From Saprospiraceae bacterium (GTDB taxonomy: Bacteria > Bacteroidota > Bacteroidia > Chitinophagales > Saprospiraceae): a stretch of 40,683 nt of DNA. The position numbers and the translations under genes were made by a program. Within the stretch, counting starts at the first letter, position 1; each line of letters begins with the position of its first letter. Below are positions 15,450 to 38,942 of the stretch, one piece after another. The notes under the pieces are model-generated. The model was not told the DNA's origin. It saw only the letters and a list, made by a program, of their open reading frames with translations, and did no database searches. The stretch spans positions 1 through 40,683 of the forward strand of contig JALSPK010000095.1 of NCBI GenBank assembly GCA_026986005.1. The letters are read 5' to 3'.

Positions 15450-15513
15450 CATTAATAATAAAATCACGTAAAAATTTGATTATTGCAAATATATACATAT
15501 TTTCTCAAATTAG

Positions 15514-20324: not shown

Positions 20325-23123
20325 ATGAAAAAACAATTACTTTTATTATTTGCATTTTTTGCATTTTCATCCGTATGGTTAAATGCTCAAGATGTAGTTT
20401 TGTTTGACTGGGAGACTTCGCAAACCAGTGTGAACGGAAAATTTTCATTTGGAAATGGTCACTTCGGTTCTGATACTTTTGGTATTGTTGATAACCCGGA
20501 TGTAACAGGAATAAATACTAGTGCTAAAGTTGGTAAATGGTGTAAAGCAAACGATGGAAAAAGTTGGGGAGGAGTTTATTTTGATGCTCCAACTCCTATA
20601 GATATGACAGGTTCAGCACTTACTTTATGTATGGATGTATTAATGCCTCATAATGGTAATGTATTACTTAAGTTGGAGAATGGAAAAATGGTTGTAGATA
20701 ACGATACTGTGGAGGTGGATGTATCTTTGGTAGAAGAATATACAGGTGATGGTAAATGGCAGCAATTATGCTTTGATTTTACTCTAGCCGATTCTCAAGG
20801 TGATGTTGCTGTAGGTTTGATTTTTCCGGGATTTACCATATTTATGGATTTTGGAAATGTGCCTTCGGACGATGAATGTCATTATTATGATAATTTAATC
20901 CAAAGAGAAGGCCCCAAACCATATTTATCCGGAGATGTTTTGGTTGATTGGGAATCTGATGGTATTAGTGTAAATGGTACAGGTGCATTTGGAAACGGTC
21001 ATTTTGCGGATAGCACATTTTCTGCTGTTGCAAATCCTCTTCCTTCCGGGCATAATAAAAGCGATTCTGTATATCAATGGTGCAAAGCCTTTGACGGAAA
21101 ATCTTGGGGAGGTATTTATTTTGATATTTCACCCTCAATATTTTTAGAGGGTAATAAAACAACACTATGTTTGGACGTCTTAATGCCTCATGATGGAAAT
21201 ATATTATTGAAAGTAGAAAAATCTACAGATGGTGGTGGTGATGCATCTTTGGTCGCTCCATATACGGGAAATGGTAAATGGCAACAAGTTTGCTTTGATT
21301 ATACTCAACCTGATTCTGATGGAGATGTAGGTGCGGGTTATACATATACTCGATTTACTATTTTCCCGGACTTTGGCAATGTTCCGGCAGAGGATGAATG
21401 TCACTATTTTGATAATTTAACACAGGTCTCAGTAACCAAAGGGTTTGATGGTGAAGTTATTGCTGATTGGGAAACTCCGGAAACCACCCCTGGCGCATTT
21501 GTTTTTGGAAAAGAAGCTACAATAGCTATTAGTCCAAATCCTAAAAGTGATGAAATAAATTCTTCAGATAGCACATTCCAATTTTGTAAAAATGAAAACT
21601 CTCCATCTTGGGCAGGTTTTGCATTTAATATTGATACCCTTGATATAACCGGTGATGTTGCTACTGTGTGTCTTTCCGTTTATGCAGATGTTGCTAATAC
21701 TGTTAGATTAAAACTAGAAGGTGCGACTGATGGTTCTGAAAATGTAAGCATGGACAGAGATTATTCTACTCCGGGAGCTTGGCAAGTTCTATGTTATGAT
21801 TTAACAGAACCGGGAGTTGATGATAAATCAGCTTTAGGTCATTTGTATACTAAAATGACGATATTTCCGGATTTTGGTATTGTCCCTGCTGCCGAAACAT
21901 GTTATTATATCGATGATATTAAGAAATCTACAAATGGAACAGGTAAATTATTAGAATTTATTAGTAATATTTTATCAAAAAGTCCTGATCATTCAATGTT
22001 TTCAGGATTTATTGATGCAGTTGACTTATCAGAAGTAGTAAATGCCAATGGTGTAACCGTTTTCGCACCTACAAATGATGCATTCAATGCGCTTCCAACT
22101 GATGAATTAAATAAATTAACCAATAATATTGATAATGCCTTGTACAATATGATTTTTCATCATGTCACTTTTGATTCTATACCGCCTGAACTATTAGTTG
22201 ATGGTACTCACATTATGAGAAATGGTCAAGATGGTGTGATTGTTGGTAATAAAATAAATGGGGCAAATATTACTGATTCAAAAGAAGCGGTTAACGGATT
22301 TGTACATACCATAGAGTCTGTTATGACATTCCCTACTGATCCTGATGTTTATAATTTAATCAATTTCGATAGTGATGACAATGGAAATACTATTGACGAT
22401 TGGTGGTGGTGGTTAAATGGAGGTCATAAAGCCGCTCAAGTAGTGGATAACCCCCTAAAAGAAGGAATAAATACTAGTGACAATGTCATGGAGGTGAAAA
22501 GATTTCCTGAAGGGGTTTGGTATCAAGGGATAGCAATTAAAGTTAATAGACCTTTCAATTTCTTTAATAATATGACAAAAGTGTGTATGGATATATATGC
22601 AGATAAGGGTGGTGATGTATTTCTAAAATATGATGCTGCTTTGGGAAATGGTATTAAAACCGGATATAGAGGCTATTATTCCGGAGGGAATACTTGGGAA
22701 ACTATATGTTGGGATGTAACAAAAGACAATTTCTATACAGATCCTCCAAACTCAAAGAATTTAATATATGATCAAATGACGTACTTCTTTGATGGCGAAA
22801 GTAAGGAATTGCCGGCTGATACAATAGTGTATTACGTCGATAATTTCAGAGTACTTAATTCTACAGTTTCAACACTTGATATTGGTAATCTGGAAGGGGT
22901 AAGTCTATATCCTAATCCTGTTAACAATACAATTACTCTTACTTCACAAACACCGATTTATTCAGCTAATATATTTGATATAAGAGGACATAAGGTGATG
23001 ACTATTAAAAATCCTTTACGATCAAAAATTGATGTGAGTTTATTACCAAATGGTTTGTACTTGATTGACTTGTACTCTGACAATAATAGAAGATTGGGAA
23101 CAGCAAAGTTTATAAAAGAATAG
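20325..23123 (+). CDS. T9SS-exported protein with four glycan-binding-like repeats and a FAS1 domain
   Basis: A 932-residue protein with a 22-residue signal peptide. Three tandem repeats lie at about 23-203, 204-376 and 377-539. Each begins with a 'DWE' strand; the first two share 'FGNGHF', 'GKSWGG(V/I)YFD' and 'DVLMPH(N/D)GN', and all have a 'GKWQQ(L/V)CFD'-like strand and an 'F..DFGNVP' block. A fasciclin (FAS1) domain occupies about 540-667 ('VTVFAPTNDAFNALP'). A fourth, more divergent repeat is at about 675-849 ('VCMDIYADKGGDVFLKYD'). The end, from about 850, is a T9SS type A sorting domain ('GVSLYPNPVNNTITL', 'IFDIRGHKVMTI'). The repeats look like jelly-roll carbohydrate-binding modules, and a related domain starts the 29654-33181 enzyme. 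Its place after susCD is that of SusE/SusF surface glycan-binding proteins. FAS1 may add adhesion. Binding is inferred. Confidence 0.82.
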   Translation: MKKQLLLLFAFFAFSSVWLNAQDVVLFDWETSQTSVNGKFSFGNGHFGSDTFGIVDNPDVTGINTSAKVGKWCKANDGKSWGGVYFDAPTPIDMTGSALTLCMDVLMPHNGNVLLKLENGKMVVDNDTVEVDVSLVEEYTGDGKWQQLCFDFTLADSQGDVAVGLIFPGFTIFMDFGNVPSDDECHYYDNLIQREGPKPYLSGDVLVDWESDGISVNGTGAFGNGHFADSTFSAVANPLPSGHNKSDSVYQWCKAFDGKSWGGIYFDISPSIFLEGNKTTLCLDVLMPHDGNILLKVEKSTDGGGDASLVAPYTGNGKWQQVCFDYTQPDSDGDVGAGYTYTRFTIFPDFGNVPAEDECHYFDNLTQVSVTKGFDGEVIADWETPETTPGAFVFGKEATIAISPNPKSDEINSSDSTFQFCKNENSPSWAGFAFNIDTLDITGDVATVCLSVYADVANTVRLKLEGATDGSENVSMDRDYSTPGAWQVLCYDLTEPGVDDKSALGHLYTKMTIFPDFGIVPAAETCYYIDDIKKSTNGTGKLLEFISNILSKSPDHSMFSGFIDAVDLSEVVNANGVTVFAPTNDAFNALPTDELNKLTNNIDNALYNMIFHHVTFDSIPPELLVDGTHIMRNGQDGVIVGNKINGANITDSKEAVNGFVHTIESVMTFPTDPDVYNLINFDSDDNGNTIDDWWWWLNGGHKAAQVVDNPLKEGINTSDNVMEVKRFPEGVWYQGIAIKVNRPFNFFNNMTKVCMDIYADKGGDVFLKYDAALGNGIKTGYRGYYSGGNTWETICWDVTKDNFYTDPPNSKNLIYDQMTYFFDGESKELPADTIVYYVDNFRVLNSTVSTLDIGNLEGVSLYPNPVNNTITLTSQTPIYSANIFDIRGHKVMTIKNPLRSKIDVSLLPNGLYLIDLYSDNNRRLGTAKFIKE

Positions 23124-23180: not shown

Positions 23181-23467
23181 TCAATGTCAATTAAATATTG
23201 TTTGCTGTTTTGCTTTTCCTCGTGAAAAAACGTAACATATGACAGATATTTACTTTATTTTTAACAATCACATTTATCGTGCGTATGATTATAATTAAAA
23301 GCTTAAACAGAATTGCTACCAAAATATTGAATATAAAAAGTATATTTTTTACTTCTTCTGTTTTTAAAAATACTTATATAGTTAAGACTCCAAAAAAGTC
23401 GGGAAGATTATTTTCATTGAAGAATCAAAAACTATTTCTTTTCCCATTTCACTATCTTAATAAGAGG

Positions 23468-25294
23468 ATGATATTAATGCTGTTATTTTGTTTTTTGATT
23501 TTTGAATTAAATGCTCAAAATAGTCTGATTCAAAATATATCTAATCGCAACAATACTTCTTTAAATGGCAAATGGCATTACATTATTGACCCTTATGAAA
23601 CAGGATACTATGATTTTCGTTATAAAGCTTATGATACTGATGAAAAAATGAAATCTAATCCCGGAGCATATTATAATAACGCAAAGCCAAAAAATAAGCT
23701 GGACAGAATAGAGTACAGTTTTGATGCTTCACCGACTTTATTAGTTCCGGGTGATTGGAATTCTCAAGATGAAAAGCTGTTGTATTATGAAGGAACTATC
23801 TGGTATAAAAAATCATTTGATTATAAGAAAACCAAATTGAAAAATCGAGTTTTTATCCATTTTGGCGCAGTTAATTACATTGCTGAAGTTTATTTGAATG
23901 GAAATAAATTAGGTAAACATGAAGGAGGTTTTACTCCGTTTTCCTATGAAGTGACCAATTCTTTAAAAGAAAAAAACAATTATTTAATAGTTAAGGTTGA
24001 TAATACAAGGCATAAAGACGCTATCCCAACACTCAATACGGATTGGTGGAATTATGGTGGGATCACTAGAGACGTATCTTTGGTGGAAGTACCAAATAAA
24101 TATATTTATGATTATTTTATTCAGCTAAAACAATCAGAGAGAGGTATAATATCCGGCTATATTCAATTGTCCAATGTCGATAACAATGAAGATATTACAA
24201 TTGAAATCCCTGAACTTGATTTTTTTAAAAAAATCCGTACTGATAAAAACGGATATGTAACACTGGATTTTAGCTTAAAAGGCATCACACTTTGGACACC
24301 TGAAAACCCCAAATTGTACGACATAGTATTAAAAACCAATTATGAAGAGTTAAAAGACCAAATCGGTTTTAGAACTATAGAATCAAAAAATGGTGAAATT
24401 ATCCTGAATGGTAAACCCATATTCTTAAGGGGGATTTGTATGCATGAGGAGAATACTATGAGAGGTGGCAGGGCTTATTCTGAAGCGGATGCAATTATAT
24501 CTTTGCATTGGGCAAAAGAATTAAATTGCAATTTTATGCGCCTTGCTCATTACCCTCATAATGAACATATGATTAGACTAGCAGATAAAGAAGGGATGCT
24601 TCTATGGTCTGAAATCCCTGTCTATTGGACAATAGATTTTGACAAAGATTTTGTCTATGAGAATGCAGAAAACCAATTGACAGATATGATAAATAGAGAT
24701 AAAAATCGTGCATCTATTATTATTTGGTCTATGGCAAATGAAACCCCTATAAGTGAAGAAAGAAATATGTTTTTATCAAAATTAATAAGTCAAGCCAGAG
24801 CTATTGATAACACACGACTCATTAGTGCTGCACTTTTGCATAAATCCGAAAATGGATTTAACAAAATAGCTGACCCTATCTCCAAAGAAGTGGATATAGT
24901 CGCTTTCAATCAATATATAGGATGGTACGGAGGGCATCCTAAAGACATCACTGCTGTGAAATGGCAATTTGACCAAAATAAACCCGTAATTATTTCAGAA
25001 TTTGGCGCTGGAGTTTTAGGAGGATACCATGCAGATAAAGATACAAGATGGTCAGAAGAATATGGTGATTTCCTCTATAAACAAACAATAAAAATGATGG
25101 AAAATATGTCTAACCTTAGAGGTGTTACTCCTTGGATACTTGCAGATTTTCGTTCTCCAAAGCGCAATTTACCAAATATTCAAGATGGTTGGAACAGGAA
25201 AGGATTGATATCAAATACAGGAACTAAAAAATTAGCATTTTATACTTTGCAGAAATGGTATAGAAATATTGAGATGAAAAGAAAACGAAAATGA
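23468..25294 (+). CDS. GH2 glycoside hydrolase, probable beta-glucuronidase
   Basis: About 608 residues from the ATG at 23468, whose product begins with signal-like 'MILMLLFCFLIFELNAQ'. The frame is open back to a GTG at 23279, which would put a 63-residue extension before the signal peptide, unusual for GH2, so the start is uncertain. Domain order is GH2 sugar-binding, immunoglobulin-like, then TIM barrel. Catalytic acid/base Glu425 is in 'WSMANETP' and nucleophile Glu511 in 'ISEFGAG'. Near the end 'GWNRKGLIS' (Asn576, Lys578) keeps the N-x-K motif by which beta-glucuronidases recognise the carboxylate, a feature beta-galactosidases lack. With UxaC, UxuA and a fructuronate reductase downstream, release of glucuronic acid is the best reading. 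It overlaps the next gene by ATGA. Confidence 0.86.
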   Translation: MILMLLFCFLIFELNAQNSLIQNISNRNNTSLNGKWHYIIDPYETGYYDFRYKAYDTDEKMKSNPGAYYNNAKPKNKLDRIEYSFDASPTLLVPGDWNSQDEKLLYYEGTIWYKKSFDYKKTKLKNRVFIHFGAVNYIAEVYLNGNKLGKHEGGFTPFSYEVTNSLKEKNNYLIVKVDNTRHKDAIPTLNTDWWNYGGITRDVSLVEVPNKYIYDYFIQLKQSERGIISGYIQLSNVDNNEDITIEIPELDFFKKIRTDKNGYVTLDFSLKGITLWTPENPKLYDIVLKTNYEELKDQIGFRTIESKNGEIILNGKPIFLRGICMHEENTMRGGRAYSEADAIISLHWAKELNCNFMRLAHYPHNEHMIRLADKEGMLLWSEIPVYWTIDFDKDFVYENAENQLTDMINRDKNRASIIIWSMANETPISEERNMFLSKLISQARAIDNTRLISAALLHKSENGFNKIADPISKEVDIVAFNQYIGWYGGHPKDITAVKWQFDQNKPVIISEFGAGVLGGYHADKDTRWSEEYGDFLYKQTIKMMENMSNLRGVTPWILADFRSPKRNLPNIQDGWNRKGLISNTGTKKLAFYTLQKWYRNIEMKRKRK

Positions 25295-28200
25295 AGAACA
25301 AATATATAATATATTTATTGCTCACCTTTGTATTCTTATCTTGTGAAAAACAAAATAAGAAATCGCAAGTATCTCAAAAAAGAACCAAGATTATTGCGCA
25401 TAGAGGGTTTTCAAGTGTAGCACCAGAAAATACTCTTGCTGCATTTCAAAAAGCAGTTGATATCGAAGCTGATTATTTTGAATTAGATGTGCATAAAACT
25501 AAAGATAATAAATTAGTTGTTATTCATGACAATTCTGTTGATAGAACAAGTTCTAATGGTAGAAAAGGAAATGTTTATACTTTGACTTATAAAGAACTTA
25601 ATAAGATTAAAGTGGGATATCCAAAAAAATTTGGTGATGAATATATCGAAGAGAAAATTCCACTATTAAGGGAAGCATTACAATTGGCTAAGGGAAAGAT
25701 AAAAGTATGTATTGAGATAAAAACCCACAATATTGAAAAAGAAGTTCTTGAAATAATTGATAACTTGAGAATGAATAGAGAAGTTATGATTTTATCATTT
25801 CATTTTGATATTCTTTCAAAGCTAAGGAAATTAGATAAACAGATACCAATATTATATCTAAGTGATTATGCCAATAAACAGACCATTGAATATGCCGTGT
25901 TAATCAATGCTAAAGCTATTGGTGTCGGATATAAAACAAATCCTACAAAAGAATTTATTGAATATGCACATAAAAAAGGCGTGGAAGTATGGAAATGGAC
26001 GGTGAATACAGAAAAGGATATGATTAACCTTATTGATTTGGGTATTGATGGTATAATAACTAATTTTCCTGATAAGGCACTTGCAATTAGAGGTGAAAAG
26101 AAAACTGAAATAACTAAATCAAAAAAGAGTTTGATAGAAGAAAAAGTTGATTCTTTGATATCGAAAATGACATTAACGGACAAAGTGGGTGAAATGACTC
26201 AATTGTCTGTGGATATGCTCCTGAAAGGTGAACCTTACAAAGTAAAAGAACCATTGGAGTTTGATATGGGTAAATTACAGAAAGTCCTTTTAGATTTAAA
26301 AGTAGGTTCAATTCTAAACAATGGTGGACATGCAAGATCATTATCAGAATGGCATCAGATATTGAGTAAAATACAAAGTTACGCTATTAATAAAAAATCT
26401 ACGGGTATCCCGGTTTTATACGGAATAGATGCAATACATGGCGCTAATTATACCAGTAATGCTACACTTTATCCACAACAATTGAATTTAGCAGCCACAT
26501 GGAATCGTGAGTTAGTTGAAGAACTTGCTTCTATTTCGGCTTATGAAACAAGAGCCTCTGCTATACCTTGGACTTTTGCCCCTGTCCTTGATGTAGGTAG
26601 AGACCCCAGATGGTCAAGGTTTTGGGAGACCTTTGGAGAAGATACTTATCTTGTAAAAGAGATGGGTAAAGCTACAATAAAAGGAATGCAAGGAGAAAGA
26701 TTTAATTCTCCTTATAAAGTAGCTTCTTGTATGAAGCATTTTTTAGGATATAGTGCACCTAAATCAGGAAAAGATAGAACGCCTTCTTATATTCCTGAAC
26801 GGCAATTAAGAGAGCTATTTTTGCCTCCGTTTAAAGCGGCAATTGATGCAGGAGCAAAAACCGTGATGATTAATTCAGGTGAATTGAATGGAATTCCTGT
26901 ACATGCAAATCCTAAAATATTAATAGATTTATTAAGGCATGAATTAGGATTTAAAGGGATAGCGGTTACTGATTGGGAAGATATTAAATATCTTTACGAA
27001 AGGCATCATATTGCTAAGGATTATAAAGATGCAATAAGAATAAGTATAAATGCAGGAATTGACATGAGCATGGTGGCTGTTGATTTAGAATTTCCTAAAT
27101 TATTGAAGGAATTAGTTGAAGAAGGTGCTGTAGCAATGAGTAGAATTGATGAATCAGTACGAAGAATACTTACATTAAAATATGAATTGGGATTGTTTGA
27201 CAAAGCATTTTATCCTGTGGAAGATTATCCTGAATTTGCTTCTGAAAAGTATAAACAAAAAGCGTTTCAAGGAGCATTGGAAAGTATTGTGTTATTGAAA
27301 AATAAAAATCAAATACTACCAATATCTAAGAATAAGAAAATACTGGTTACAGGCCCTACTGCTAATTCTTTAGCTGCCATTAACGGTGCTTGGACTGGCA
27401 CTTGGCAAGGAAAAGATAAAAAATATAACACACCAAATAAAAAAACTATCTTAGAGTCATTAATAGATGAATATGGGGCAAACATTAATTTTGTAAAGGG
27501 TAGTACTGTTAATGAACCGATTAATATAGATAAAGCAGTTCAAGTCGCCAAAAAATCGGATGTTGCTGTAATTTGTATTGGTGAAATGCCTTATGTCGAA
27601 ATACCTGGAAATATAAACGATTTGACTTTGTCAAAAGCTCAAATTGATTTGGTAACAGCAATTTCTAATACAGGCATTCCTATTGTTTTGGTCTTAGTGG
27701 AAGGTAGACCCAGAGTTGTCAATACAATAGAACCATTAGCTAAAGGAATTGTTTTTGCCGGACTACCGGGAAATGAAGGGGGAAGAGCTATTGCTCAAAT
27801 TTTAATCGGTAATTATAATCCAAATGGGAGATTGCCTTTTACTTATCCACGATTTGTAAATGATTTGATTCATTATGACCATAAATATACTGAAAATAAG
27901 GATATTGACTTTAGTGATAATGGATTCAATCCACAATGGGAATTTGCACATGGTCTTAGCTACACATCTTTTTCTTATGACAATCTTGAAATTAAGAATA
28001 TAGACAAAGATAATTTTTCTATATCAATACAAGTGAAAAATACAGGAAATAAAACGGGCTCTTTGATTATTCCTTTGTTTATTAGTGATAAAGTAGCAAG
28101 TATAACCCCAAGTGTAAAAAGATTAAAGGGGTTTAAAAAAATAAAATTGGAAAACAGAGAAACACAAAAAATCAATTTCAATATCTCAAAAGAAGATTTA

Positions 28201-28296
28201 AAATTTGTCGGAATAAATAATAAATGGATATTTGAACCCGGTAAATTTGAAGTTGAAATTGGAAATTTAACAAAAATGTTTACTGTAGATAATTAG
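25291..28296 (+). CDS. Fusion lipoprotein: glycerophosphodiester phosphodiesterase (GDPD) + GH3 glycoside hydrolase
   Basis: A 1001-residue lipoprotein (lipobox 'FLSC', Cys18). Residues about 32-265 are a GDPD domain with the core motifs intact: 'IIAHRGF' (His37), 'APENTL', 'FELDVHKTKD' (Glu64, Asp66: metal ligands), 'VVIHD' (His79), and the C-terminal 'GIDGIITNFPD'. From about 280 a complete GH3 follows: 'GIPVLYGIDAIHG', 'PVLDVGRDPRW', 'VASCMKHFLGY', and the nucleophile Asp561 in 'AVTDWEDIKY'. The second GH3 domain has 'IGEMPYVEIPGNINDLTLS', resembling exo-beta-glucosidases, and a fibronectin-III-like C-terminal domain closes it. GDPDs split glycerophosphodiesters to sn-glycerol-3-phosphate, so the fusion may remove glycerophosphate from a glucan before glucose is clipped off. 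That is inference. ATG overlaps the GH2 stop. Confidence 0.9.
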   Translation: MKNKYIIYLLLTFVFLSCEKQNKKSQVSQKRTKIIAHRGFSSVAPENTLAAFQKAVDIEADYFELDVHKTKDNKLVVIHDNSVDRTSSNGRKGNVYTLTYKELNKIKVGYPKKFGDEYIEEKIPLLREALQLAKGKIKVCIEIKTHNIEKEVLEIIDNLRMNREVMILSFHFDILSKLRKLDKQIPILYLSDYANKQTIEYAVLINAKAIGVGYKTNPTKEFIEYAHKKGVEVWKWTVNTEKDMINLIDLGIDGIITNFPDKALAIRGEKKTEITKSKKSLIEEKVDSLISKMTLTDKVGEMTQLSVDMLLKGEPYKVKEPLEFDMGKLQKVLLDLKVGSILNNGGHARSLSEWHQILSKIQSYAINKKSTGIPVLYGIDAIHGANYTSNATLYPQQLNLAATWNRELVEELASISAYETRASAIPWTFAPVLDVGRDPRWSRFWETFGEDTYLVKEMGKATIKGMQGERFNSPYKVASCMKHFLGYSAPKSGKDRTPSYIPERQLRELFLPPFKAAIDAGAKTVMINSGELNGIPVHANPKILIDLLRHELGFKGIAVTDWEDIKYLYERHHIAKDYKDAIRISINAGIDMSMVAVDLEFPKLLKELVEEGAVAMSRIDESVRRILTLKYELGLFDKAFYPVEDYPEFASEKYKQKAFQGALESIVLLKNKNQILPISKNKKILVTGPTANSLAAINGAWTGTWQGKDKKYNTPNKKTILESLIDEYGANINFVKGSTVNEPINIDKAVQVAKKSDVAVICIGEMPYVEIPGNINDLTLSKAQIDLVTAISNTGIPIVLVLVEGRPRVVNTIEPLAKGIVFAGLPGNEGGRAIAQILIGNYNPNGRLPFTYPRFVNDLIHYDHKYTENKDIDFSDNGFNPQWEFAHGLSYTSFSYDNLEIKNIDKDNFSISIQVKNTGNKTGSLIIPLFISDKVASITPSVKRLKGFKKIKLENRETQKINFNISKEDLKFVGINNKWIFEPGKFEVEIGNLTKMFTVDN

Positions 28297-28444: not shown

Positions 28445-29641
28445 ATGAAAATATCAATACTTATAATGTTACTTTTGATTTTTGGAGTATTTTCATGTGA
28501 TAAAACTGAAATGCGTACGCCAATAGTTACTGTAGAAAAACCTGTTTTTAGCATTAACGACACTTCAATTATAGAAGGAGATAATAAATATTTTGAAATA
28601 AAAGTAAAGCTAAGTGGTAAACACCCAAATTCAATTCTAATTCCTTATTATACCTTGTCGGGTTTGGCTGAACCGTTTTCTGATTATGAACCAATAGATG
28701 GTATATTAGAATTTGTCGGAACAGATTCTTTAGAAGCTCAAAGTATTTTTATAGAGATAAAAGATGATGATATATTTGAAGAGAATGAAGATTTTAAAAT
28801 AGTTTTCACCATAGATTCTTCTGTTATTGCTGCTGATACCATTCTGTCCGTTTCAATAATAGATGACGATATAGAATTTACAGACAACGATTATCCCGGA
28901 TATGTCACAAAATTGCATCAAGAAGGATGGACATTGATTTTAAATGATGAATTTTCAGGAAACAAGCTAAACAAAAACCATTGGTATGTTCAAGATAGGG
29001 GTAATTGGTATAATGAGGAAGTTCAGTATTATAGCCCTCAAAATTTAAAGATCGAAAATGGTTTGCTTACATTCATTGCAAAAAAAGAGAATTATAAAGG
29101 CTCTTCATATACATCAGCGAGAATCAATAGCAGAGATAAAATGGTTTTCAAATATGGAAAAATTGAATTTAGAGCAAAATTGCCTTATAGTAAAGGGCTT
29201 TGGCCTGCATTGTGGTTGCAAGGGAATGAATTATATCAATTGGGATGGCCCAAAAGAGGAGAAATAGATATAATGGAATTGAAAGGACATATTCCCAATA
29301 CGATAAGTTCGACAATTCACTACGCTGATTTGTCTGGAAACCATAAATACCCTACATCTAAAAAATATACCTTGCCAAAAGGAGAGTTCAAGGATGAGTT
29401 TCATGTTTTTACAATGAAATGGGATGAATATAAATTAAAGTTTTATGTTGACGATAAACTATATAATACCATATTTCATAACAATTTTCATTATTATAAT
29501 AATAAAAACCCGTTTAAGTATCCATTTTATGTAATTATGAATGTAGCAGTAGGTGGAAATTTTGGTGGTGATCCTGATGCCACAACAGTTTGGCCTCAAA
29601 CTATGGATATTGATTATGTGAGAATTTATAAAGAAAATTGA
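28445..29641 (+). CDS. GH16 endo-beta-glucanase (laminarinase-type) lipoprotein with N-terminal Calx-beta domain
   Basis: A 398-residue lipoprotein (lipobox 'GVFSC', Cys18). Residues about 30-140 form a Calx-beta-like domain ('FSINDTSIIEGDNKYFEIKV', ending 'SVSIIDDD'). GH16 covers about 155-398 and has the catalytic motif 'GEIDIMELKG' (Glu273 nucleophile, Asp275, Glu278 acid/base) in the beta-bulge form E-x-D-x-x-E common to beta-1,3-glucanases. 'GLWPALWLQG', 'HVFTMKWDEYKLKFYVDD' and 'PFYVIMNVAVGGNFGG' are family landmarks. It likely makes endo cuts in a beta-1,3 or mixed-linkage glucan at the cell surface. A 148-bp spacer before it may hold its own promoter, though I see no clean TAnnTTTG. 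The next gene starts 12 bp downstream. Confidence 0.95.
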   Translation: MKISILIMLLLIFGVFSCDKTEMRTPIVTVEKPVFSINDTSIIEGDNKYFEIKVKLSGKHPNSILIPYYTLSGLAEPFSDYEPIDGILEFVGTDSLEAQSIFIEIKDDDIFEENEDFKIVFTIDSSVIAADTILSVSIIDDDIEFTDNDYPGYVTKLHQEGWTLILNDEFSGNKLNKNHWYVQDRGNWYNEEVQYYSPQNLKIENGLLTFIAKKENYKGSSYTSARINSRDKMVFKYGKIEFRAKLPYSKGLWPALWLQGNELYQLGWPKRGEIDIMELKGHIPNTISSTIHYADLSGNHKYPTSKKYTLPKGEFKDEFHVFTMKWDEYKLKFYVDDKLYNTIFHNNFHYYNNKNPFKYPFYVIMNVAVGGNFGGDPDATTVWPQTMDIDYVRIYKEN

Positions 29642-29653
29642 AAAAACTTAAAT

Positions 29654-32600
29654 ATGAATAAAATAAAATATCTTTCAATTATTATTATAGCTTTAATTAT
29701 GGCTTGTAGTCCAAAAATAGCTAATAGACCTATTTACAAAACATCAATAATAGACTTTAGTAAAGATAAGTCTGTTTCTTTTCATTATTTTGCCAACGGG
29801 CATCTGTCAAAAGAAGGCTATGAATTTAAAATCCTTGAGAAAAAAGGTAGGATTGCCGGTGAAATAGTAAGAGCTGCCGATGCCAGATTGTTTTCGGGAC
29901 AGTACCTTGTATTAAAAAAGCCAATACGAATTGCTGAAGGAAATAGATTTAGCATTGATGTGTTGATGGATCATTTGGGTACTTTTACATTCAAATTAGA
30001 AGAATCCTTGGATGGCGGTTCTACAACTTCAATCACTATAAAAAACACAAAAATAAATAAATGGGAAACATTGATTTTTGATTTTAAAGATGCTATTTAT
30101 GGTGGGCCGAGTTACAATAAAATCGCGATATTTACGGATTTGCATAGCCCTGTGACGGGTAAGGATGTATATAGTTATTTTGCAAATATCAATCAACTAG
30201 AGACGGATAAAAATACTCCAATCCAAGGAGACCCAAAACAAGCGGTAAAAATAGTAATCCTCGGTTCATCTACTGCTGCCGGAACCGGACCTTCAGAAAC
30301 TCGCAACTCTTGGGTAAATAGATATAGAAGACAACTTCAAGCAGAAAACGGATATCACCAAGTAATCAATTTAGCAGTTGGCGGTTACACTACTTATCAT
30401 TTATTGCCAACAAATGCACCTGTTTCTGACAATAGACCCAAACCCAATCCAAAGCACAATGTTGCCATGGCGATTTCCCTTAATCCTGATGGAGTATTGA
30501 TAAATTTGCCTAGCAATGATGTGGCAAATGGATATAGTATCAAAGAGCAGCTTAATAATTACAGATTGATTGCAAAAGCATTGAAAAACGCAAATATTCC
30601 TGTTTGGGTGTCCACACCTCAAAGTCGAAATATGTCCAAAGAAAAAATCAAACTCCAAAAAGTATTAAAAGATTCAACTTATGCCATGTTTGGCAGAAAA
30701 ACTCTTGATTTTTGGACAGATTTGTCAGATTGGTCAGGTAAAATAGATAAGAAGTATAATTGTGGAGATGGGGTTCATCTTAATGATGAAGGGCATTACT
30801 TGCTATTCAAAGAAGTAATGGACAAAGATATAGTAGCAAAATTAATCGATAGGAGAAATGGTATAGTAAAAAAGGATTATGCATATTCTGTTCCGGTATA
30901 TAGAGAAGGTCATGCTCTTATATGGCAAGATGAATTTAATGGAACAAGTCTGGACACTAGTATTTGGTCTCACGAATTAGGTGATGGTTGTCCTAGTCTT
31001 TGCGGCTGGGGAAATGCTGAAAAAGTGTGGTATAGACCGGAAAACACACAGGTTAAAGACGGCAAGTTGATTATCACTGCGATGCCTGATAAAGAACACA
31101 TAGGCTATTGGTCATCATCGAGAATAGTAACAAAAAACAAGAAAGAATTCAAATATGGTCGAATTGATATTAGAGCTAAGTTACCTAAAACAAGAGGGCT
31201 TTGGCCTGCGTTGTGGCTATTAGGTAAAAACAGAGCTGAAAAAGATTGGCCATATTGTGGTGAAATTGACATCATGGAAGAAAAAGGTCAAATTCCATGG
31301 CGAATAAGGGGAACTGTTTTTTATAAAGGGACTAATGGCAAAACTTATCATAAAGGAGATAAATACGAATTGCAATATGGGAACTTTAGTGATAATTTTC
31401 ATCTCTTTTCAATTGATTGGAATAAAAATAGAATTAAGTACTTTGTAGATGATGTCCTGTTTGCAGAAAGAAAATATAGTGAACTAGAAAACTTGAATCT
31501 AAATGACAACCCATTTTTAAAACCATTTTATATGCTTATCAATTTGGCTGTTGGAGGCAACTATTTAGGATATCCTGACAATGCATCTGTCTTTCCACAG
31601 AGATTTGAAATTGATTATGTGAGATATTATATTACAGATAAATACTTTTACTGCCCGAAAATTGAAGAAAAAGTCAAAATCCTTCCCCCAAAAGAAAATC
31701 TTTGGATCTTTATATTAGCAGGACAATCCAATATGGTTGGAGCAGGAACAGTTGGTCCTCAAGATACTCTTAGTCATCCGCGTATTTTGACAATGAATAA
31801 AAATGGAGATTGGATAAATGCTAAAGAACCAATACATAAACACACTAATGGAAATAGAGGATTGGATAGTGGTCTAAGTTTTGCGCGTACTCTACTTCAG
31901 TCAGTTCCTAAAAATGTATCTATAGCTATTATACCTACAGCAATGGGCGGTAGTGCGTTGGATAATTGGCTTAAAGATGATGAATATCGCGGACAACATC
32001 TCTGGAGCAATATGAAATCAAAAATCAAGGCTGCGGGAAAAGATGGTGTTTTCAAAGGGATGCTTTGGCATCAAGGGGAATCCGATGCTAAAACTGAGAG
32101 GATACCTACTTATAATAAAAGATTTCTTGTCTTTTTGGATAGAGTGAGAAAAGAAGTTAATAATCCTAAACTGCCTGTAGTAGTTGGTGAAATTGGAAAG
32201 TTCCAAACACACCGTCCACTATGGTTACAATTCAATGAAAATTTGCATAAACTGGCAAATAACAATGAGCTTATAGATATAATAAAAACGGACGACCTCA
32301 AGGATAAAGGGGATCAAGTGCACTTCAATAGTGAAGGACAACGTACAATGGGTATCCGTTATGCAAAAAAAATGGCTAAATTATTAGGCTTGCCTATACC
32401 AATAATTAAGAATAATCATAAATTTATGACATACAATGTAAGATTGGATGTTGAAGTAGATGGGGATGAGGCATGGACATATAGAAAAGACATGTTTGTC
32501 AATCAAATAAATGAAATTGCACCGGATATATTTGGGATACAGGAAGGGCTTCCACATCAGGTGAAATACATCAAAAATCATTTGAGTAACTACGATTTTA

Positions 32601-33181
32601 TTGGATTGGCAAGAGATGGAGAAAAAGGCCAAGAAGAGTATTCAGCTATATTTTTCAATACAAATAAATACAAAATCATAGAGTCTAATACTATTTGGTT
32701 GTCCGGCACTCCAAACAAAGTAACAAAAGGGTGGGATGCTGCATGCTTGAGGATATGCACATATGGTCATTTTGAAGATAAGAAAACCGGAACTCGATTT
32801 TGGGTATTTAATACTCATTTGGATCATAGAGGTCAAAAAGCAAGAGCAAAAGGAATGGATCTAATTCTTAGGGAAATTGCCAAGGAAAATTCAAATAATG
32901 AACCTTTGATCCTCTCAGGTGATTTTAATGTCTTGCCAAATGACAGAATCATTAAAAACCTCTCAAATAAAATGCAAGATAGTTTTTTGAAATCAATTAA
33001 TTCGGGTAAACCTTTGGGTACTTTTAATGGTTTTGACTCCAAATCCAAGGCGGATAAAAGAATAGATTATATTTTTGTAAATGATAAAGTGGAGATACTC
33101 AATTATAAAGTAGATACAAGAAAAGAGGATGGCAAGTATATTTCAGACCATTTTCCGGTGATTGTAAAGGCAAAATTTTAA
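29654..33181 (+). CDS. Five-domain lipoprotein: binding-like module + SGNH esterase + GH16 + second SGNH (SASA) esterase + EEP phosphodiesterase
   Basis: An 1175-residue lipoprotein (lipobox 'IMAC', Cys18). (1) About 28-182: a module like the repeats of the 20325-23123 protein ('FSIDVLMDHLGTFTFKLEES'). (2) About 200-400: SGNH/GDSL esterase with 'VILGSSTAAG' (Ser206), 'LPSND', and 'DGVHLND' (Asp372, His375). (3) About 420-660: GH16 with 'GEIDIMEEKG' (Glu537, Glu542). (4) About 685-910: sialate-O-acetylesterase-like SGNH domain with 'LAGQSNMVGAG' (Ser692), 'WHQGESD', and 'DQVHFNSEG' (Asp887, His890). (5) About 922-1175: endonuclease/exonuclease/phosphatase (EEP) domain with 'TYNVRLD', 'GIQEGL' (Glu964), 'NTHLDH', 'SGDFNVLP' and 'SDHFPV' (His1166). 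All active sites look intact. The set suggests one surface enzyme that de-esterifies, removes a phosphodiester or phosphate from, and cuts a decorated beta-glucan. Substrates are inferred. Confidence 0.9.
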   Translation: MNKIKYLSIIIIALIMACSPKIANRPIYKTSIIDFSKDKSVSFHYFANGHLSKEGYEFKILEKKGRIAGEIVRAADARLFSGQYLVLKKPIRIAEGNRFSIDVLMDHLGTFTFKLEESLDGGSTTSITIKNTKINKWETLIFDFKDAIYGGPSYNKIAIFTDLHSPVTGKDVYSYFANINQLETDKNTPIQGDPKQAVKIVILGSSTAAGTGPSETRNSWVNRYRRQLQAENGYHQVINLAVGGYTTYHLLPTNAPVSDNRPKPNPKHNVAMAISLNPDGVLINLPSNDVANGYSIKEQLNNYRLIAKALKNANIPVWVSTPQSRNMSKEKIKLQKVLKDSTYAMFGRKTLDFWTDLSDWSGKIDKKYNCGDGVHLNDEGHYLLFKEVMDKDIVAKLIDRRNGIVKKDYAYSVPVYREGHALIWQDEFNGTSLDTSIWSHELGDGCPSLCGWGNAEKVWYRPENTQVKDGKLIITAMPDKEHIGYWSSSRIVTKNKKEFKYGRIDIRAKLPKTRGLWPALWLLGKNRAEKDWPYCGEIDIMEEKGQIPWRIRGTVFYKGTNGKTYHKGDKYELQYGNFSDNFHLFSIDWNKNRIKYFVDDVLFAERKYSELENLNLNDNPFLKPFYMLINLAVGGNYLGYPDNASVFPQRFEIDYVRYYITDKYFYCPKIEEKVKILPPKENLWIFILAGQSNMVGAGTVGPQDTLSHPRILTMNKNGDWINAKEPIHKHTNGNRGLDSGLSFARTLLQSVPKNVSIAIIPTAMGGSALDNWLKDDEYRGQHLWSNMKSKIKAAGKDGVFKGMLWHQGESDAKTERIPTYNKRFLVFLDRVRKEVNNPKLPVVVGEIGKFQTHRPLWLQFNENLHKLANNNELIDIIKTDDLKDKGDQVHFNSEGQRTMGIRYAKKMAKLLGLPIPIIKNNHKFMTYNVRLDVEVDGDEAWTYRKDMFVNQINEIAPDIFGIQEGLPHQVKYIKNHLSNYDFIGLARDGEKGQEEYSAIFFNTNKYKIIESNTIWLSGTPNKVTKGWDAACLRICTYGHFEDKKTGTRFWVFNTHLDHRGQKARAKGMDLILREIAKENSNNEPLILSGDFNVLPNDRIIKNLSNKMQDSFLKSINSGKPLGTFNGFDSKSKADKRIDYIFVNDKVEILNYKVDTRKEDGKYISDHFPVIVKAKF

Positions 33182-33212: not shown

Positions 33213-35501
33213 ATGAAAAATATATTTTACTTGTTATTTATCGTTTACATATTCACCAATTGTAATGATGCAACTCAAAAGCATACCAAAACAAACAGTA
33301 TCGTTTTGAGTGCTAAGGTAGAAGCTATATTTCAAAAAATGACATTAAAAGAGAAAATAGGACAGCTAAATCTAATACGGACAGGCAAAAGTGTCAAAAC
33401 GGGTGAAGTAGTAAGCAAAAATGTTGAGGATAAGCTAAAAACAGGTTTAGTAGGGGGTATTTTTGGTCTTCAAGGAAAACGTAATATACGCAGTGCTCAA
33501 CAAATTGCGGTAAATAAAAGTCGTTTGGGAATTCCATTAATATTTGGATTAGATGTAATACATGGGTATAAAACAACATTCCCTATTCCATTAGCATTGT
33601 CTTGTTCGTGGGATATGAAACTTATTGAGCAAGTTGCGCATAGTTCAGCGATTGAAGCTACTAGTGATGGTCTAAATTGGACATTTTCTCCAATGGTAGA
33701 TATAGCAAGAGACCCAAGATGGGGAAGAATAGCAGAAGGAGCCGGTGAAGATCCTTTTCTCGGGAGTGCTGTCGCTAAATCAATGGTAAAAGGTTACCAA
33801 GGAGATAAACTTTCTGAAAATAATACTATGCTGGCTTGTGTTAAGCATTTTGCTAATTATGGAGCAACTGAAGGCGGACGTGATTACAATACAGTAGATA
33901 TGAGCGACATCCGTTGCTATAATGAGTATTATCCTCCATACAAAGCGGCTATTGATGCAGGAGTAGGGTCAATTATGACATCTTTCAATGTATTAAATTA
34001 TATTCCTGCTACTGCCAATAAACATTTGTTTACTGAAATATTAAGAGAGCAATGGGGGTTTTCGGGGTTTGTAGTAACAGATTATACTGCGATCAACGAG
34101 ATGATAAATCACGGTATAGGCAAAGATTTGCAGGAGGTATCTTACAAAGCGCTGAATGCAGGCATCGATATGGATATGGTCGGAGAAGGTTTTTTGACTA
34201 CATTGGAAAAATCCCTTGAAGAAGGCAGTATAAACAAAGATCAAATTGATATAGCTTGTAAAAGAATATTAAAAGCAAAAGAATTGCTGGGACTTTTTGA
34301 TAATCCGTACCGATATTTGGAAGAATCTACGGATTTATTAAATAAAGATACAAGACAACTTGCCAGAAAAGCTGCTACAGAATCAATTGTACTTTTAAAA
34401 AACAATAATAGTATTCTACCTTTAACAAATGATATTAAAATCGCCTTGATAGGTCCATTGGCTAATAGCAAGGAAAACATGCTTGGATGTTGGAATGTCG
34501 CAGGTGATTACAAACAAGCAGTAACAGTCTTAAAAGGGGTACAATCTTTTGTTGGTAAAGGAAATGTAATGTATGCAAAAGGGGCGAATATTACTGATAA
34601 TTTAAAGTTGACAAACAGGGTAAATGCCTTGGGAAAGCAAATTGAAATAGATAAACGTAGCCCAGCTGATATGATAAAAGAAGCGGTAAATATATCTAAT
34701 AAGTCAGATGTCATAGTCGCCGTATTGGGAGAAGCCGCTAATATGTCCGGTGAAGCTTCAAGTATGGCAGATATCAGTTTGCAGGATTCTCAAAAGAAAC
34801 TGTTGAAAGCTCTAAAATCACTAAATAAACCAATTGTTTTAGTTCTTTTTAATGGTCGTCCCATGACCTTAAAATGGGAGAGTGAAAACTTGGATGCTAT
34901 ATTGGATGTTTGGTTTGGTGGAACAGAATCCGGCAATGCTGTGGCTGATGTGCTATTTGGTAAAGTAAATCCTTCAGCCAAATTAACAACTTCTTTCCCC
35001 TTGTCGGTAGGACAAATACCTGTTTATCACAGTATGCTCAATACAGGCAGACCTGATAATAAAAGCCATAAAAAATTTCGCTCTAATTATTTGGATATCG
35101 CAAATGAGCCATTGTTTCCTTTTGGATATGGATTGAGTTATACACAATTTGAGTATGGAAAAATAAAGCTAAGTGATACGGTTTTAACCCCCCAAAAGCC
35201 AATTATAGCAAGTATTGATATAACAAATTCAGGTAAAGTGGAAGGTGAAGAAATTGTCCAAATGTATATACGTGATATAGTCGGTTCAATCAGCAGGCCT
35301 ATAAAAGAATTGAAAGGATTTGAAAAAATACAATTAAAACCTAGAGAAACAAAAACCGTAAGATTTGAAATTAATGAAGCCTTGTTGAGATTTTACAATT
35401 CCGGGTTGAAATATGAATCTGAAAGTGGAAAATTTGAAGTGATGATAGGAAAGGATTCAGAGAACCTGTCAAAAACTGGATTTGTTTTGTACTTGAAATA
35501 A
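33213..35501 (+). CDS. bglX: GH3 beta-glucosidase, BglX-like lipoprotein
   Basis: A 762-residue protein with a signal peptide and probable lipid-anchoring Cys in 'IFTNC' (Cys17). The N-terminal TIM barrel has 'GIPLIFGLDVIHGYKTTFPI', 'PMVDIARDPRWGRIAEGAG', 'ACVKHFANYGATEGGRDYNT', and nucleophile Asp290 in 'VVTDYTAINEM'. The second domain carries 'AVLGEAANMSGEASSMADIS', close to E. coli BglX. A fibronectin-III-like domain ends the protein ('IQLKPRETKTVRFEI'). It releases terminal beta-glucose from oligosaccharides in the periplasm and complements the GDPD-linked GH3, which has a different second-domain signature. Placed 31 bp after the multidomain gene and 31 bp before the reductase gene. Confidence 0.95.
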   Translation: MKNIFYLLFIVYIFTNCNDATQKHTKTNSIVLSAKVEAIFQKMTLKEKIGQLNLIRTGKSVKTGEVVSKNVEDKLKTGLVGGIFGLQGKRNIRSAQQIAVNKSRLGIPLIFGLDVIHGYKTTFPIPLALSCSWDMKLIEQVAHSSAIEATSDGLNWTFSPMVDIARDPRWGRIAEGAGEDPFLGSAVAKSMVKGYQGDKLSENNTMLACVKHFANYGATEGGRDYNTVDMSDIRCYNEYYPPYKAAIDAGVGSIMTSFNVLNYIPATANKHLFTEILREQWGFSGFVVTDYTAINEMINHGIGKDLQEVSYKALNAGIDMDMVGEGFLTTLEKSLEEGSINKDQIDIACKRILKAKELLGLFDNPYRYLEESTDLLNKDTRQLARKAATESIVLLKNNNSILPLTNDIKIALIGPLANSKENMLGCWNVAGDYKQAVTVLKGVQSFVGKGNVMYAKGANITDNLKLTNRVNALGKQIEIDKRSPADMIKEAVNISNKSDVIVAVLGEAANMSGEASSMADISLQDSQKKLLKALKSLNKPIVLVLFNGRPMTLKWESENLDAILDVWFGGTESGNAVADVLFGKVNPSAKLTTSFPLSVGQIPVYHSMLNTGRPDNKSHKKFRSNYLDIANEPLFPFGYGLSYTQFEYGKIKLSDTVLTPQKPIIASIDITNSGKVEGEEIVQMYIRDIVGSISRPIKELKGFEKIQLKPRETKTVRFEINEALLRFYNSGLKYESESGKFEVMIGKDSENLSKTGFVLYLK

Positions 35502-35532: not shown

Positions 35533-36339
35533 ATGAGTTTTTATAATCAAAAAGTTGTATTAATAACAGGAGGAAATGGAGTTCTCGGTAGCTCTATAGC
35601 CAATCACTTCTCCTCCCTTGGAGCTAAAATAGGTATATTGGGACGAACGGAGTCTACAGTACAAAAAACAGTTGATAACCTCAATAACAAAGGAGGGACT
35701 GCGATTGCTTTAATAGCTGATGTCTTAAATCGGAATGATTTGGAAAAAGCTTGTAAAAAGCTGTTGTCCAAATGGGAAAAAATTGATATTCTAATCAATG
35801 CAGCCGGTGGCAATCTTAAAGAAGCTACCATTATGCCTGATGACTCTTTTTTTGATATGTCGGAAGATGCATTTTCGAAAGTAATGCACTTAAATTTATT
35901 GGGAACAGTCTTACCATCACAGGTATTTGGAAAATATTTAATCAAAGAAGGAAATTCTTGTATTTTGAATATTTCATCTATGGCAGCACAATTGCCACTT
36001 ACCGGCATTGTAGGATACTCAGCATCTAAAGCAGCGATCGATAATTTTACAAAATGGCTTGCTGTAGAACTATGTTCAAAATATGGTAAAAGAATAAGGG
36101 TTAACGCGATTGCTCCGGGGTTTTTTATTAGCAAACAAAATAAAACATTATTGTTAAAAAGAAATGGTAATCTAACAGATAGAGGAACAACTATTATCTC
36201 TCAAACACCGATGAGACGCTTTGGAAAACCTGAAGAATTGAATGGTGTAGTAGAGTGGATTTGTAGTGATGCTGCCAGCTTTGTAACCGGAATTGTAGTC
36301 CCCATTGATGGAGGTTTCAGCGCATTCAGCGGAGTATAA
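35533..36339 (+). CDS. uxuB: SDR-family D-fructuronate reductase / D-mannonate oxidoreductase
   Basis: A 268-residue short-chain dehydrogenase with the NAD(P)-binding 'TGGNGVLGS' (residues 12-20), 'INAAGGN', catalytic Ser in 'NISSMA', and 'YSASK' (Tyr-x-x-x-Lys). It ends 'DGGFSAFSGV', the tail typical of SDR-type mannonate oxidoreductases such as B. subtilis UxuB (a different fold from E. coli UxuB). Position supports this: it is 9 bp before UxuA and part of the UxaC-reductase-UxuA route from glucuronate to fructuronate, mannonate and 2-keto-3-deoxygluconate. Cytoplasmic. Other SDR substrates are possible, but the neighbours make this assignment likely. Confidence 0.88.
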   Translation: MSFYNQKVVLITGGNGVLGSSIANHFSSLGAKIGILGRTESTVQKTVDNLNNKGGTAIALIADVLNRNDLEKACKKLLSKWEKIDILINAAGGNLKEATIMPDDSFFDMSEDAFSKVMHLNLLGTVLPSQVFGKYLIKEGNSCILNISSMAAQLPLTGIVGYSASKAAIDNFTKWLAVELCSKYGKRIRVNAIAPGFFISKQNKTLLLKRNGNLTDRGTTIISQTPMRRFGKPEELNGVVEWICSDAASFVTGIVVPIDGGFSAFSGV

Positions 36340-36348
36340 AAGATATTT

Positions 36349-37539
36349 ATGAAAAACATGAAAAAATTGGAACATACTTGGAGATGGTTTGGTAATAGCG
36401 ATCCGGTAAATCTAGCCGATATCAAACAAACCGGGGCAACGGGCGTGGTGACAGCTTTACACCATATCCCAAATGGAGAAATTTGGAAAATTGAAGAAAT
36501 AGATAATCGAAAAGAAGATATAGAAAATGTCGGATTAAACTGGTCGGTCGTAGAAAGCATCCCTGTACATGAAGATATAAAAAAGCAAAAAGGTAATTGG
36601 AAAAAATATATCGAAAATTATAAACAAAGTATTATTAATCTGGGTAAATGCAATATTCCGGTGGTGACATATAATTTTATGCCTGTTTTGGACTGGACAA
36701 GAACCGATTTGTGCTATAAAATGCCGGATGGATCTTTGGCTTTAAGGTTTGAAAAGACTGCTCTTATTGCATTTGATATTTATATTTTGAATAGAGATAA
36801 TGCAAAAAAACAGTATTCCAAACGAGAAATAGCAGAAGCAAAACTTTTTTATAATAAGATGACCGATATTGAGAAGGAAATATTAACAAAAAGTATTATT
36901 GCAGGATTGCCCGGAGCAGAGGAGAAATATACTTTAAATGATTTTAGGGAAGCATTACAAGAATACGAAGATATTGATGAAAGGAAATTACGAGATAATT
37001 TGATGTATTTTATCAAAGAAATAAGTCCCGTAGCTGAAAAAGCAGGAGTAAAACTAGCCCTACACCCTGATGACCCTCCTTTTTCTTTATTTGGATTACC
37101 TCGAGTAGTAAGTACAAAAAAAGATTACAAACTATTGTTTGAAGAAATTAATATTGATGCCAACGGCATGTGTTTTTGTAGTGGGTCGTTGGCAGCAAGA
37201 GAGGATAATGATTTAGTCGAGATGGTAAGTGCTTTTTCCGATAAAATACATTTTATCCATCTGAGGAATTTAAAAAGAGAACAAGGTGGTGGCTTTTATG
37301 AGACAAATCATCTTGACGGAAGTATAGATATGTATAAATTATTGAAATTATTATTGCATGAGCAGCAGAAAAGACAATTGTCTATCCCCATGCGCCCTGA
37401 TCACGGGCATCAAATGATGGATGATTTGGCAAAAAAGACCAATCCCGGATATTCTGCTATTGGACGATTACGCGGTCTAGCTGAAATGAGAGGATTGGAA
37501 ACAGGAATATTAGAAAATATGAAAAGAAGAAAAATATGA
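36349..37539 (+). CDS. uxuA: D-mannonate dehydratase
   Basis: Dehydrates D-mannonate to 2-keto-3-deoxy-D-gluconate. The 396-residue protein has the UxuA N-terminus '[20 protein letters not shown]' followed by '[18 protein letters not shown]'. Metal-binding and active-site blocks include '[10 protein letters not shown]', '[17 protein letters not shown]', '[13 protein letters not shown]' and 'MRPDHGH'. The start at 36349 or Met4 at 36358 are both possible. Its stop overlaps the uxaC start by ATGA, so the two are coupled. Confidence 0.97.
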
Positions 37540-38942
37540 CTCCTTTTATAAATGATGATTTTTTACTGCAAAATAGATTTGCGATAAGACTATACCATGA
37601 ATTTGCTGAAAATCTACCTATTATAGACTATCACAATCATTTATCTCCTCAAGATATTTCTGATAATAAAAAGTTTGAAAATCTAACTCAAATTTGGCTT
37701 GAAGGAGACCATTATAAGTGGAGAGCAATGAGAGCAAATGGCGTTGATGAGCACTATATATCAGGTGATGCCGATGATTGGGAAAAATTTGAAAAATGGG
37801 CAGAAACTGTACCAAATACAATGAGAAATCCACTATATCATTGGACGCATTTAGAGTTAAAAAGGTATTTTGGTATTAATAAATTATTAACTCCTGATAC
37901 AGCAAAAGATATTTATTTCAAATGTTCTGAAATGTTAAGAACTGAAGAGTTTTCAACACAAAACCTGCTTAGAAAAATGAGAGTTGAAGTTGTTTGTACA
38001 ACCGATGACCCAACTGATAAACTTCATTATCACAAAAATATACAAGCAAATAGTATTGGGACTAAAGTTCTACCAACTTTCAGGACTGATGATATTTTTC
38101 TTTCAAACAATTCTTTGAAATTCAAAAAATATATTAAGAAGCTAGAGCTTTCGTCATCTGTTAAAATAAGTACACTCATAGATTTTATAGAAGCAATTAA
38201 AATGCGATTAGACTATTTTGAAGCTGCCGGTTGTGTTATTTCTGACTATGGGTTGTCCGAAATTCCTCCCATAGATTTTAACATAGATATTTTATCAAAT
38301 GAATTTGAAGCTTGGGTAAATGATGAAAATTCTGATTTTCTTAATATGGCTAATCAATTCAATGGGCTGATTATACTCCAATTATCAAAACTGTATCATG
38401 AAAAAGATATGGTTCAACAGTTTCATCTTGGGGCAATCAGAAATAATAATTCTAGATTATTGAATAAAATAGGATATGATGCCGGTTGTGATTCCATTGG
38501 AGATTACTCTCATGCTGAAAGATTATCTGCATTTTTAAATGCTTTAGATAAAGAAAAAAAGTTAGCTAAAACAATATTATATAACCTCAATCCTCGAGAT
38601 AATGAAGTTTTTTCCACAATGACCGGCAATTTTCAAATGGGCGATATTCCCGGTAAGATACAATGGGGAAGTGCTTGGTGGTTTCTAGACCAAAAAGATG
38701 GCATGGAAAAACAAATTAATACATTATCAAATACCGGTTTGTTAAGCAGATTTATTGGGATGATTACGGATAGCCGTAGTTTTTTATCATTTCCCAGACA
38801 CGAATATTTTAGAAGAATCCTTTGCAATATCATCGGGACGGACATTGAAAAAGGATTTTTGCCAAATGACATTAAGTTTTTAGGAGAAATGATAAATAAT
38901 ATCTCTTATTTCAATTCTAGAAAATATTTATTTGGAAAATAA
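37536..38942 (+). CDS. uxaC: Uronate isomerase (glucuronate isomerase)
   Basis: Converts D-glucuronate to D-fructuronate, or D-galacturonate to D-tagaturonate. The 468-residue protein is the usual length and begins with '[15 protein letters not shown]', in which His33 and His35 are metal ligands of this amidohydrolase-superfamily enzyme. Other landmarks: '[16 protein letters not shown]', '[12 protein letters not shown]', '[20 protein letters not shown]' and 'SLLSRF'-like '[20 protein letters not shown]'. Last gene of the run, coupled to uxuA. With GH2 and UxuA (not altronate enzymes) beside it, glucuronate is the likely substrate. No clear terminator follows; the next gene converges after 21 bp. 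Confidence 0.97.

Follow-up and report, generated by a model that had tools for sequence, protein, structure and literature searches.

Can one polypeptide bind a beta-glucan, remove its acyl and phosphorus-containing groups, and cut its backbone? This question is raised by a gene in a 40,683-nucleotide stretch of DNA from Saprospiraceae bacterium (assembly GCA_026986005.1, contig JALSPK010000095.1, positions 1 to 40,683 of the forward strand), hereafter called the window. A preliminary description of the DNA had claimed that the gene, at 29654..33181 (+), encodes a lipoprotein with a binding-like module, two esterases, a GH16 module and an EEP module, and that the protein couples de-esterification, removal of a phosphorus-containing group and cleavage of the backbone on a single substrate. 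Our data indicate that the product is a real multi-catalytic enzyme, as predicted, that it is patchily distributed, and that it belongs to a polysaccharide utilization locus (PUL) whose predicted target is a decorated glucan of the beta-1,3 type. On balance we lean towards the reading that this PUL lipoprotein would act on an acidic beta-1,3-type glucan bearing phosphodiesters, freeing it of ester and phosphate groups and cutting its backbone. It is of interest chiefly because it may lead to a glucan that carries phosphorus.

Modules of the protein

The gene is a single ATG-to-stop open reading frame (ORF) of 1175 aa without an internal stop. This frame, Pfam modules called above curated cut-offs and intact catalytic motifs bear out the claim of five modules in one chain, and the catalytic residues Ser206, Glu537/Glu542, Ser692 and Glu964/His1166 are all at the positions claimed. 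The assignment as a lipoprotein also agrees with our reading by eye of a signal peptide (29654..29707, +) with the lipobox-like motif LIMAC up to Cys18.

The N-terminal module (residues 27-193; 29732..30232, +) had been called binding-like. It is a homologue of the laminarin-binding carbohydrate-binding module (CBM) X584, known from 8QX6. An AlphaFold model built from 34 sequences had a mean pLDDT of 92.8, and VIA-align placed 8qx6, entitled 'Novel laminarin-binding CBM X584', first among its matches (Z 16.0, rmsd 2.2, 138 aligned; next row 13.7). The profile of the 34 sequences gave 8qx6 as its single PDB match (E 1e-19). The module thus has both the beta-sandwich fold and the sequence relation to 8QX6 on which an X584-type assignment depends. 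Identity in the structural alignment is 20%, and the module of the window is a putative laminarin binder.

The SGNH/GDSL hydrolase module (30245..30859, +) matches Lipase_GDSL_2 (PF13472) at residues 203-381 (profile 2-176 of 178, E 1.6e-16, 61.7 bits against a cut-off of 32.9). The hallmarks of this group are a Ser nucleophile block, an Asn block and a D-x-x-H block, and the module has GSST at 204 with Ser206, PSND at 286 and GDGVHLND at 371. A sequence search of the PDB found no solved relative of it (best E 0.17). The GH16 module (30911..31633, +) matches PF00722 at residues 460-635 (profile 9-160 of 175, E 2e-22, 79.9 bits against 22) and carries the paired glutamates of ExDxxE, Glu537 and Glu542, in GEIDIME at 536. 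Its nearest PDB entries are the laminarinases ULam111 (5wut, E 2.9e-60) and that of Thermotoga (3azx, E 3.5e-57), the latter also being the best Foldseek match. Both resemble the window protein in the GH16 module; their matches span residues 418-659 or 420-659 only and do not reach the esterase and EEP modules. The module is therefore predicted to be of the laminarinase type and would cleave beta-1,3-glucan.

The SASA esterase module (31703..32377, +) matches PF03629 at residues 684-908 (profile 3-225 of 226, E 4e-56, 190.6 bits against 24.8). It contains GQSNM at 690 with Ser692, and GDQVHF at 886 where the SASA family has a C-terminal Asp/His block. The nearest solved protein is 1zmb (E 3.5e-25), annotated 'Acetylxylan esterase related enzyme'. 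The EEP module (32411..33178, +) matches Exo_endo_phos (PF03372) at residues 925-1166 over the entire profile (1-225 of 225, E 2.6e-13, 50.6 bits against 24.5), with Glu964 in GIQEGLP and His1166 in SDHFP. Its nearest solved relative is 4c1r, named mannosyl-6-phosphatase (E 7.7e-46), with which the motifs QE, N-H-DH, GDFNV and SDHFPV align. 4c1r is a chain of 290 residues named for mannose phosphate, whereas in the window the EEP module shares a polypeptide with a glucanase, and the PUL is of a glucan type. We presume that 4c1r is BT3783 of the yeast mannan work. The module scored 27.7 bits against TIGR00633 (xth, exonuclease III), for which the cut-off is 99. A nuclease was thus ruled out by family scores, and the module is predicted to be of the phosphatase type, nearer to a sugar phosphatase than to exonuclease III.

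The full-length AlphaFold model gives no confirmation that the esterase and EEP folds are complete. That model was poor (mean pLDDT 54, from a 7-row alignment), and its 50 best Foldseek rows were GH16-type matches. Because of this weakness, fold completeness was judged from the profile coverage given above, which suggests that these folds are complete. An alignment that mixed 94 fragments, intended for structure prediction, was dropped, as its GH16, SASA and EEP fragments were misaligned (14-22% identity).

Junctions in other genomes

Orthologues were searched in 148 genomes (best four candidates per genome scored) and in 398 genomes of the family, 390 of the phylum and 338 of the order (best two per genome); these sets overlap and include the genome of the window. 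A scan of genome contigs with two peptide patterns matched 84 stretches and confirmed 52 loci. Neither these genome sets nor the 52 loci contained the complete five-part chain outside its own genome, and at E <= 1e-90 no other genome of the phylum and order sets matched. A contig scan with the single protein as query confirmed 0 of 60 stretches. Among 72,556 plasmid records 318 matched; in none of them did a single place cover 80% of the query.

Parts of the chain occur elsewhere in the same order. Besides the genome of the window, only two of the 398 family genomes, G423 and G341, exceed single-domain scores. G423 has an ORF of 677 aa that is 64% identical over residues 7-664 (N-terminal module, SGNH and GH16), with a separate EEP gene directly downstream. 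The gene order GH3, GH16, N-SGNH-GH16, EEP on this contig, which begins within GH3, is that of the window. L168 (HyVt-532), from the contig scan, agrees with G423 contig 53 in contig number and gene layout. G341 has SASA and EEP, 64% identical over residues 668-1175. Its frame leaves the contig end at the linker PKVEEKV and has no signal peptide before SASA, so G341 may hold a truncated copy of the full chain; at E <= 1e-5 nothing else in this genome matched the GH16 part. Two metagenome-assembled genomes (MAGs) recovered by the contig scan, Flavobacteriaceae CSMAG_568 (L166) and Flavobacterium sp. CSMAG_225 (L167), encode the N-terminal module, SGNH, GH16 and SASA in single ORFs of about 900 aa, which are 55% and 54% identical to the window protein. 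Their modules follow the order of the first four in the window protein, and a C-terminal EEP is absent; in L166 EEP is a gene of its own, and the L167 contig begins just before the fusion gene. The linker between GH16 and SASA (31634..31693, +) is alignable across the window, L166 and L167; the residues at the contig end of G341 align with the second half of it. The isolate names CSMAG and HyVt suggest cold-seep and hydrothermal-vent metagenomes.

The architecture is thus less isolated than the preliminary description implied, since each junction recurs in another genome. This also bears on the explanation that an assembly error or frameshift joined two or more genes. The genome is fragmented (220 contigs), and the scans found the exact five-part chain complete in this genome only, which would suit an artefact. 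Against this stand the junctions in other assemblies (G423, L166, L167 and G341) with homologous linkers, the absence of an internal signal peptide as judged by eye, and a composition (GC 0.31-0.41 and GC3 0.22-0.30 per 100 codons) with no step coinciding with a junction. We regard an artefact as highly improbable.

Because every junction occurs in another genome, the series from N-SGNH-GH16, then with SASA, then with EEP, suggests a stepwise accretion of operon neighbours. Such a process could have been incidental. The loss of stop codons would then have joined neighbours, each module would act on its own substrate, and the tether would have no functional meaning. N-SGNH-GH16 and EEP are adjacent but separate in G423 and EEP is its own gene in L166, which indicates that the fusion is not required. 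In contrast, the GH16-SASA junction and its linker are kept in the two Flavobacteriaceae MAGs and apparently in G341, and differing fusions of one module set recur in related loci. An incidental origin is, in our estimate, improbable.

The cluster in L166 consists of GH16, GH2 (58%), GH16, EEP, GH3, a SASA-like gene and the fusion, followed by a sugar transporter. The SASA-like gene directly before the fusion gene (L166:6496-7950, CSMAG_568) is a second one of its kind and encodes 485 aa with a PF03629 score of 35.9 bits. G423 has a SusC on another contig that is 63% identical over residues 5-444. The best SusC matches in the Flavobacteriaceae genomes reach merely 34% and 31%, and their transporter therefore lies outside the close clade. 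In G341, one locus (L075) contains SusD, the CBM-repeat protein, GH2 (64%) and GH3, without GDPD. Contig 155 of G341 (L160) encodes an SGNH protein of 624 aa between a GH3-like fragment and the start of a SusC, and is perhaps a further piece of the locus in this genome.

GDPD and EEP domains in related loci

Two genes upstream of the five-module gene lies a fusion of GDPD and GH3 (25291..28296, +; 1001 aa). Its GDPD is the sole one detected in the genome, and it has all of the motifs HRG, ELD, HD and EIK, which have a role in GDPD. A SusD search of 298 genomes gave 16 near loci (37-62% identity), and 42 of the weaker SusD places (27-34%), chosen roughly by rank, served as the far set. GDPD and EEP were both present in 8 of the 16 near loci and in none of the 42 far loci (Fisher 6.7e-6), a count which excludes the window itself, uses profiles partly built from near loci and includes several short stretches. 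The near loci come from 12 genera, five of which have both domains, and are not independent of one another. GH16 was found in 7 of the near and 5 of the far loci.

The two domains occur in these loci in differing combinations. EEP-GDPD fusions stand beside SusCD at L041:7935-9500, L042:8306-9862, L076:8766-10358 and L077:9695-11395. GDPD-GH16 fusions are accompanied by an EEP gene, which adjoins in L080, L082 and L084 and is nearby on the other strand in L079. This shuffling of one set of GDPD, EEP and glycoside hydrolase modules into differing fusions is the main argument that they may share a substrate. A further EEP-GDPD bifunctional phosphoesterase fusion was found at L156:7334-9211. The stretches L041, L042, L076, L077 and L156 had no match to the glycoside hydrolases of the window. 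In a search with the GDPD-GH3 fusion, in which two candidates per genome were scored, 187 of 395 genomes of the phylum matched at E <= 1e-100; among the matches listed, all but that of the window start at residue 234 or later, in the GH3 part.

A GDPD-GH16 fusion is also known among solved proteins. The multidomain beta-1,3(4)-glucanase of 7WW4 and 7WWC, the latter with laminaritriose, joins a laminarinase-type GH16 to a phosphodiesterase-type domain. It differs from the window protein in having GDPD in place of EEP, and between them its two matched regions take up the space that esterases or a CBM would need. Passages of PMC12448869 assign 7WWC to Pedobacter terrae and elsewhere tie it, apparently by mistake, to a Bacillus xylanase; they also state that 7WW4 and 7WWC have no accompanying publication. 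According to a figure legend in PMC9131120, a locus which that paper links to fucoidan has a GDPD gene close to susE, susD and susC. GDPD near Sus genes has therefore been drawn before in another setting, as far as this legend goes. Passages of PMC11345257 make no mention of a phosphodiesterase. Titles and abstract openings in the open-access literature yielded no account of GDPD or EEP in a beta-glucan PUL.

Several observations weigh against a phosphodiester-bearing glucan as the common substrate. The other 8 near loci have neither GDPD nor EEP, some of them on short contigs. The EEP-GDPD fusions of L041, L042, L076 and L077 occur without a GH16 match, so phosphodiesters, and not glucans, may be what this transporter clade imports. 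The 20.6-kb L166 stretch gave no GDPD match, nor did G341 (79% complete) or the same-genus genomes G001-G004, and in G423 and G151 the GDPDs are on contigs other than that with the matching GH16 genes. The five-module fusion was not found in G001-G004 either (G001 and G002 have the SGNH match only, at E <= 1e-50, and G003 and G004 have none), and the gene is therefore patchy even within the genus. We identified no natural phosphodiester-bearing beta-1,3-glucan with glucuronate. As to binding, Foldseek with the N-terminal module ranked the CBM11 structure 6r31 (E 4.9e-6) narrowly above 8qx6 (7.9e-6), and its CBM repeat, found in 7 of the 16 near and 6 of the 42 far loci, is not specific to the PUL type.

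These data keep phosphate scavenging as a rival to be taken seriously, because there are EEP-GDPD loci without GH16, half of the near loci lack both domains, and relatives have no linked GDPD. The glucan would then be an ordinary laminarin-like one, and EEP and GDPD would harvest phosphate from accompanying glycerophosphodiesters or other esters. The four near loci with EEP-GDPD and no GH16 match fit this, as do a sulfatase-family gene that adjoins EEP-GDPD in L041 and, in L042, an opposite-strand gene for a type I phosphodiesterase. On the other side, four loci and 7WW4 have GDPD-GH16 fusions, the window has GDPD-GH3, and the EEP of the window is joined to GH16-SASA; scavenging needs no direct fusion to a glucanase. 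We consider scavenging unlikely, though less so than an incidental fusion.

For the decorated glucan, which we favour, we infer the activities, their order, the side of the cell, the substrate and the chemistry of the phosphorus-containing group as follows. The glucan would be bound by the X584-like module and by the complex of SusD and binding protein. Acyl, probably acetyl, groups would be taken off by the SGNH and SASA esterases. GDPD, fused to GH3, would open a glycerophosphate-type diester, and EEP would remove the remaining phosphate from the sugar or from the glycerol phosphate set free. GH16 would then cleave the cleared backbone, and GH3 enzymes would finish the oligosaccharides. GH2 would remove a uronic acid, which would pass to UxaC, mannonate oxidoreductase and UxuA. 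The tether may keep the decoration-removing sites beside the endo-glucanase. The coupling on one substrate that the preliminary description had proposed is indirectly favoured by context, namely the relation to 4c1r, the GDPD-GH3 neighbour and the joint presence of GDPD and EEP in half of the loci with related SusD, and is not favoured by the other half, which lacks both. A broader proposal is that one SusCD clade with shuffled GDPD, EEP and GH16 marks a PUL class for an undescribed acetylated, glucuronate-bearing, glycerophosphorylated beta-1,3-glucan, with the five-module protein as its most condensed enzyme. This is possible, and we advance it tentatively.

If the favoured reading is true, it indicates a beta-glucan with phosphorus and acyl decorations that would yield both carbon and phosphate when broken down. 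GDPD, EEP, SASA, SGNH and GH16 would then be the enzymes for finding and sequencing such a glucan. The fusion of GDPD domains, and here of EEP as well, to glucanases in Bacteroidota would then also be explained; the open-access literature searched gave no account of it.

Neighbouring genes

Every gene assigned between 15674 and 38942 lies on the + strand, and the gaps are short, the five-module gene having 12 bp before and 31 bp after it. SusC (15674..18631, +; TIGR04056, 812 bits against a cut-off of 368) and SusD (18653..20248, +; PF07980) are adjacent and stand in one same-strand run with the carbohydrate-active enzymes, as in a PUL. Directly upstream of the five-module gene is a gene for Calx-beta and GH16 (28445..29641, +), and downstream is a GH3 of BglX type (33213..35501, +; 909 bits against 666). 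The GH2 gene (23279..25294, +; probable start near 23468, by eye) is uronidase-like. Its nearest PDB entries are 7vqm (E 4.5e-211), entitled 'GH2 beta-galacturonate AqGalA', and 6d1n (E 7.4e-204), entitled 'Beta-galactosidase/beta-glucuronidase', and these relatives fit galacturonate or glucuronate.

D-mannonate oxidoreductase (SDR; 35533..36339, +; NF006132, 361.8 bits against 281), mannonate dehydratase UxuA (36349..37539, +) and glucuronate isomerase UxaC (37536..38942, +) follow. Together these three enzymes form the glucuronate route. The locus therefore likely releases glucuronate, as predicted from these genes, although the GH2 relatives also allow galacturonate. The glucuronate branch, the identity of the CBM and the GDPD-GH3 neighbour are additions to the preliminary description.

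The gene immediately 3' of SusD (20325..23123, +) encodes a binding protein with four copies of the CBM repeat of the N-terminal module, a fasciclin domain and a T9SS tail. The five-module enzyme therefore shares a module with the binding protein of its locus. A fasciclin domain at this position seems to us unusual. The same CBM repeat was found in a multi-repeat protein at L161:1213-3483 (G030 contig 13), which adjoins a lipoprotein; by eye the latter may resemble a glycoamylase/GH144-type protein. On the other strand, upstream of SusC, lies a regulator-like gene with Reg_prop, Y_Y_Y and a LuxR-type HTH (12573..15467, -).

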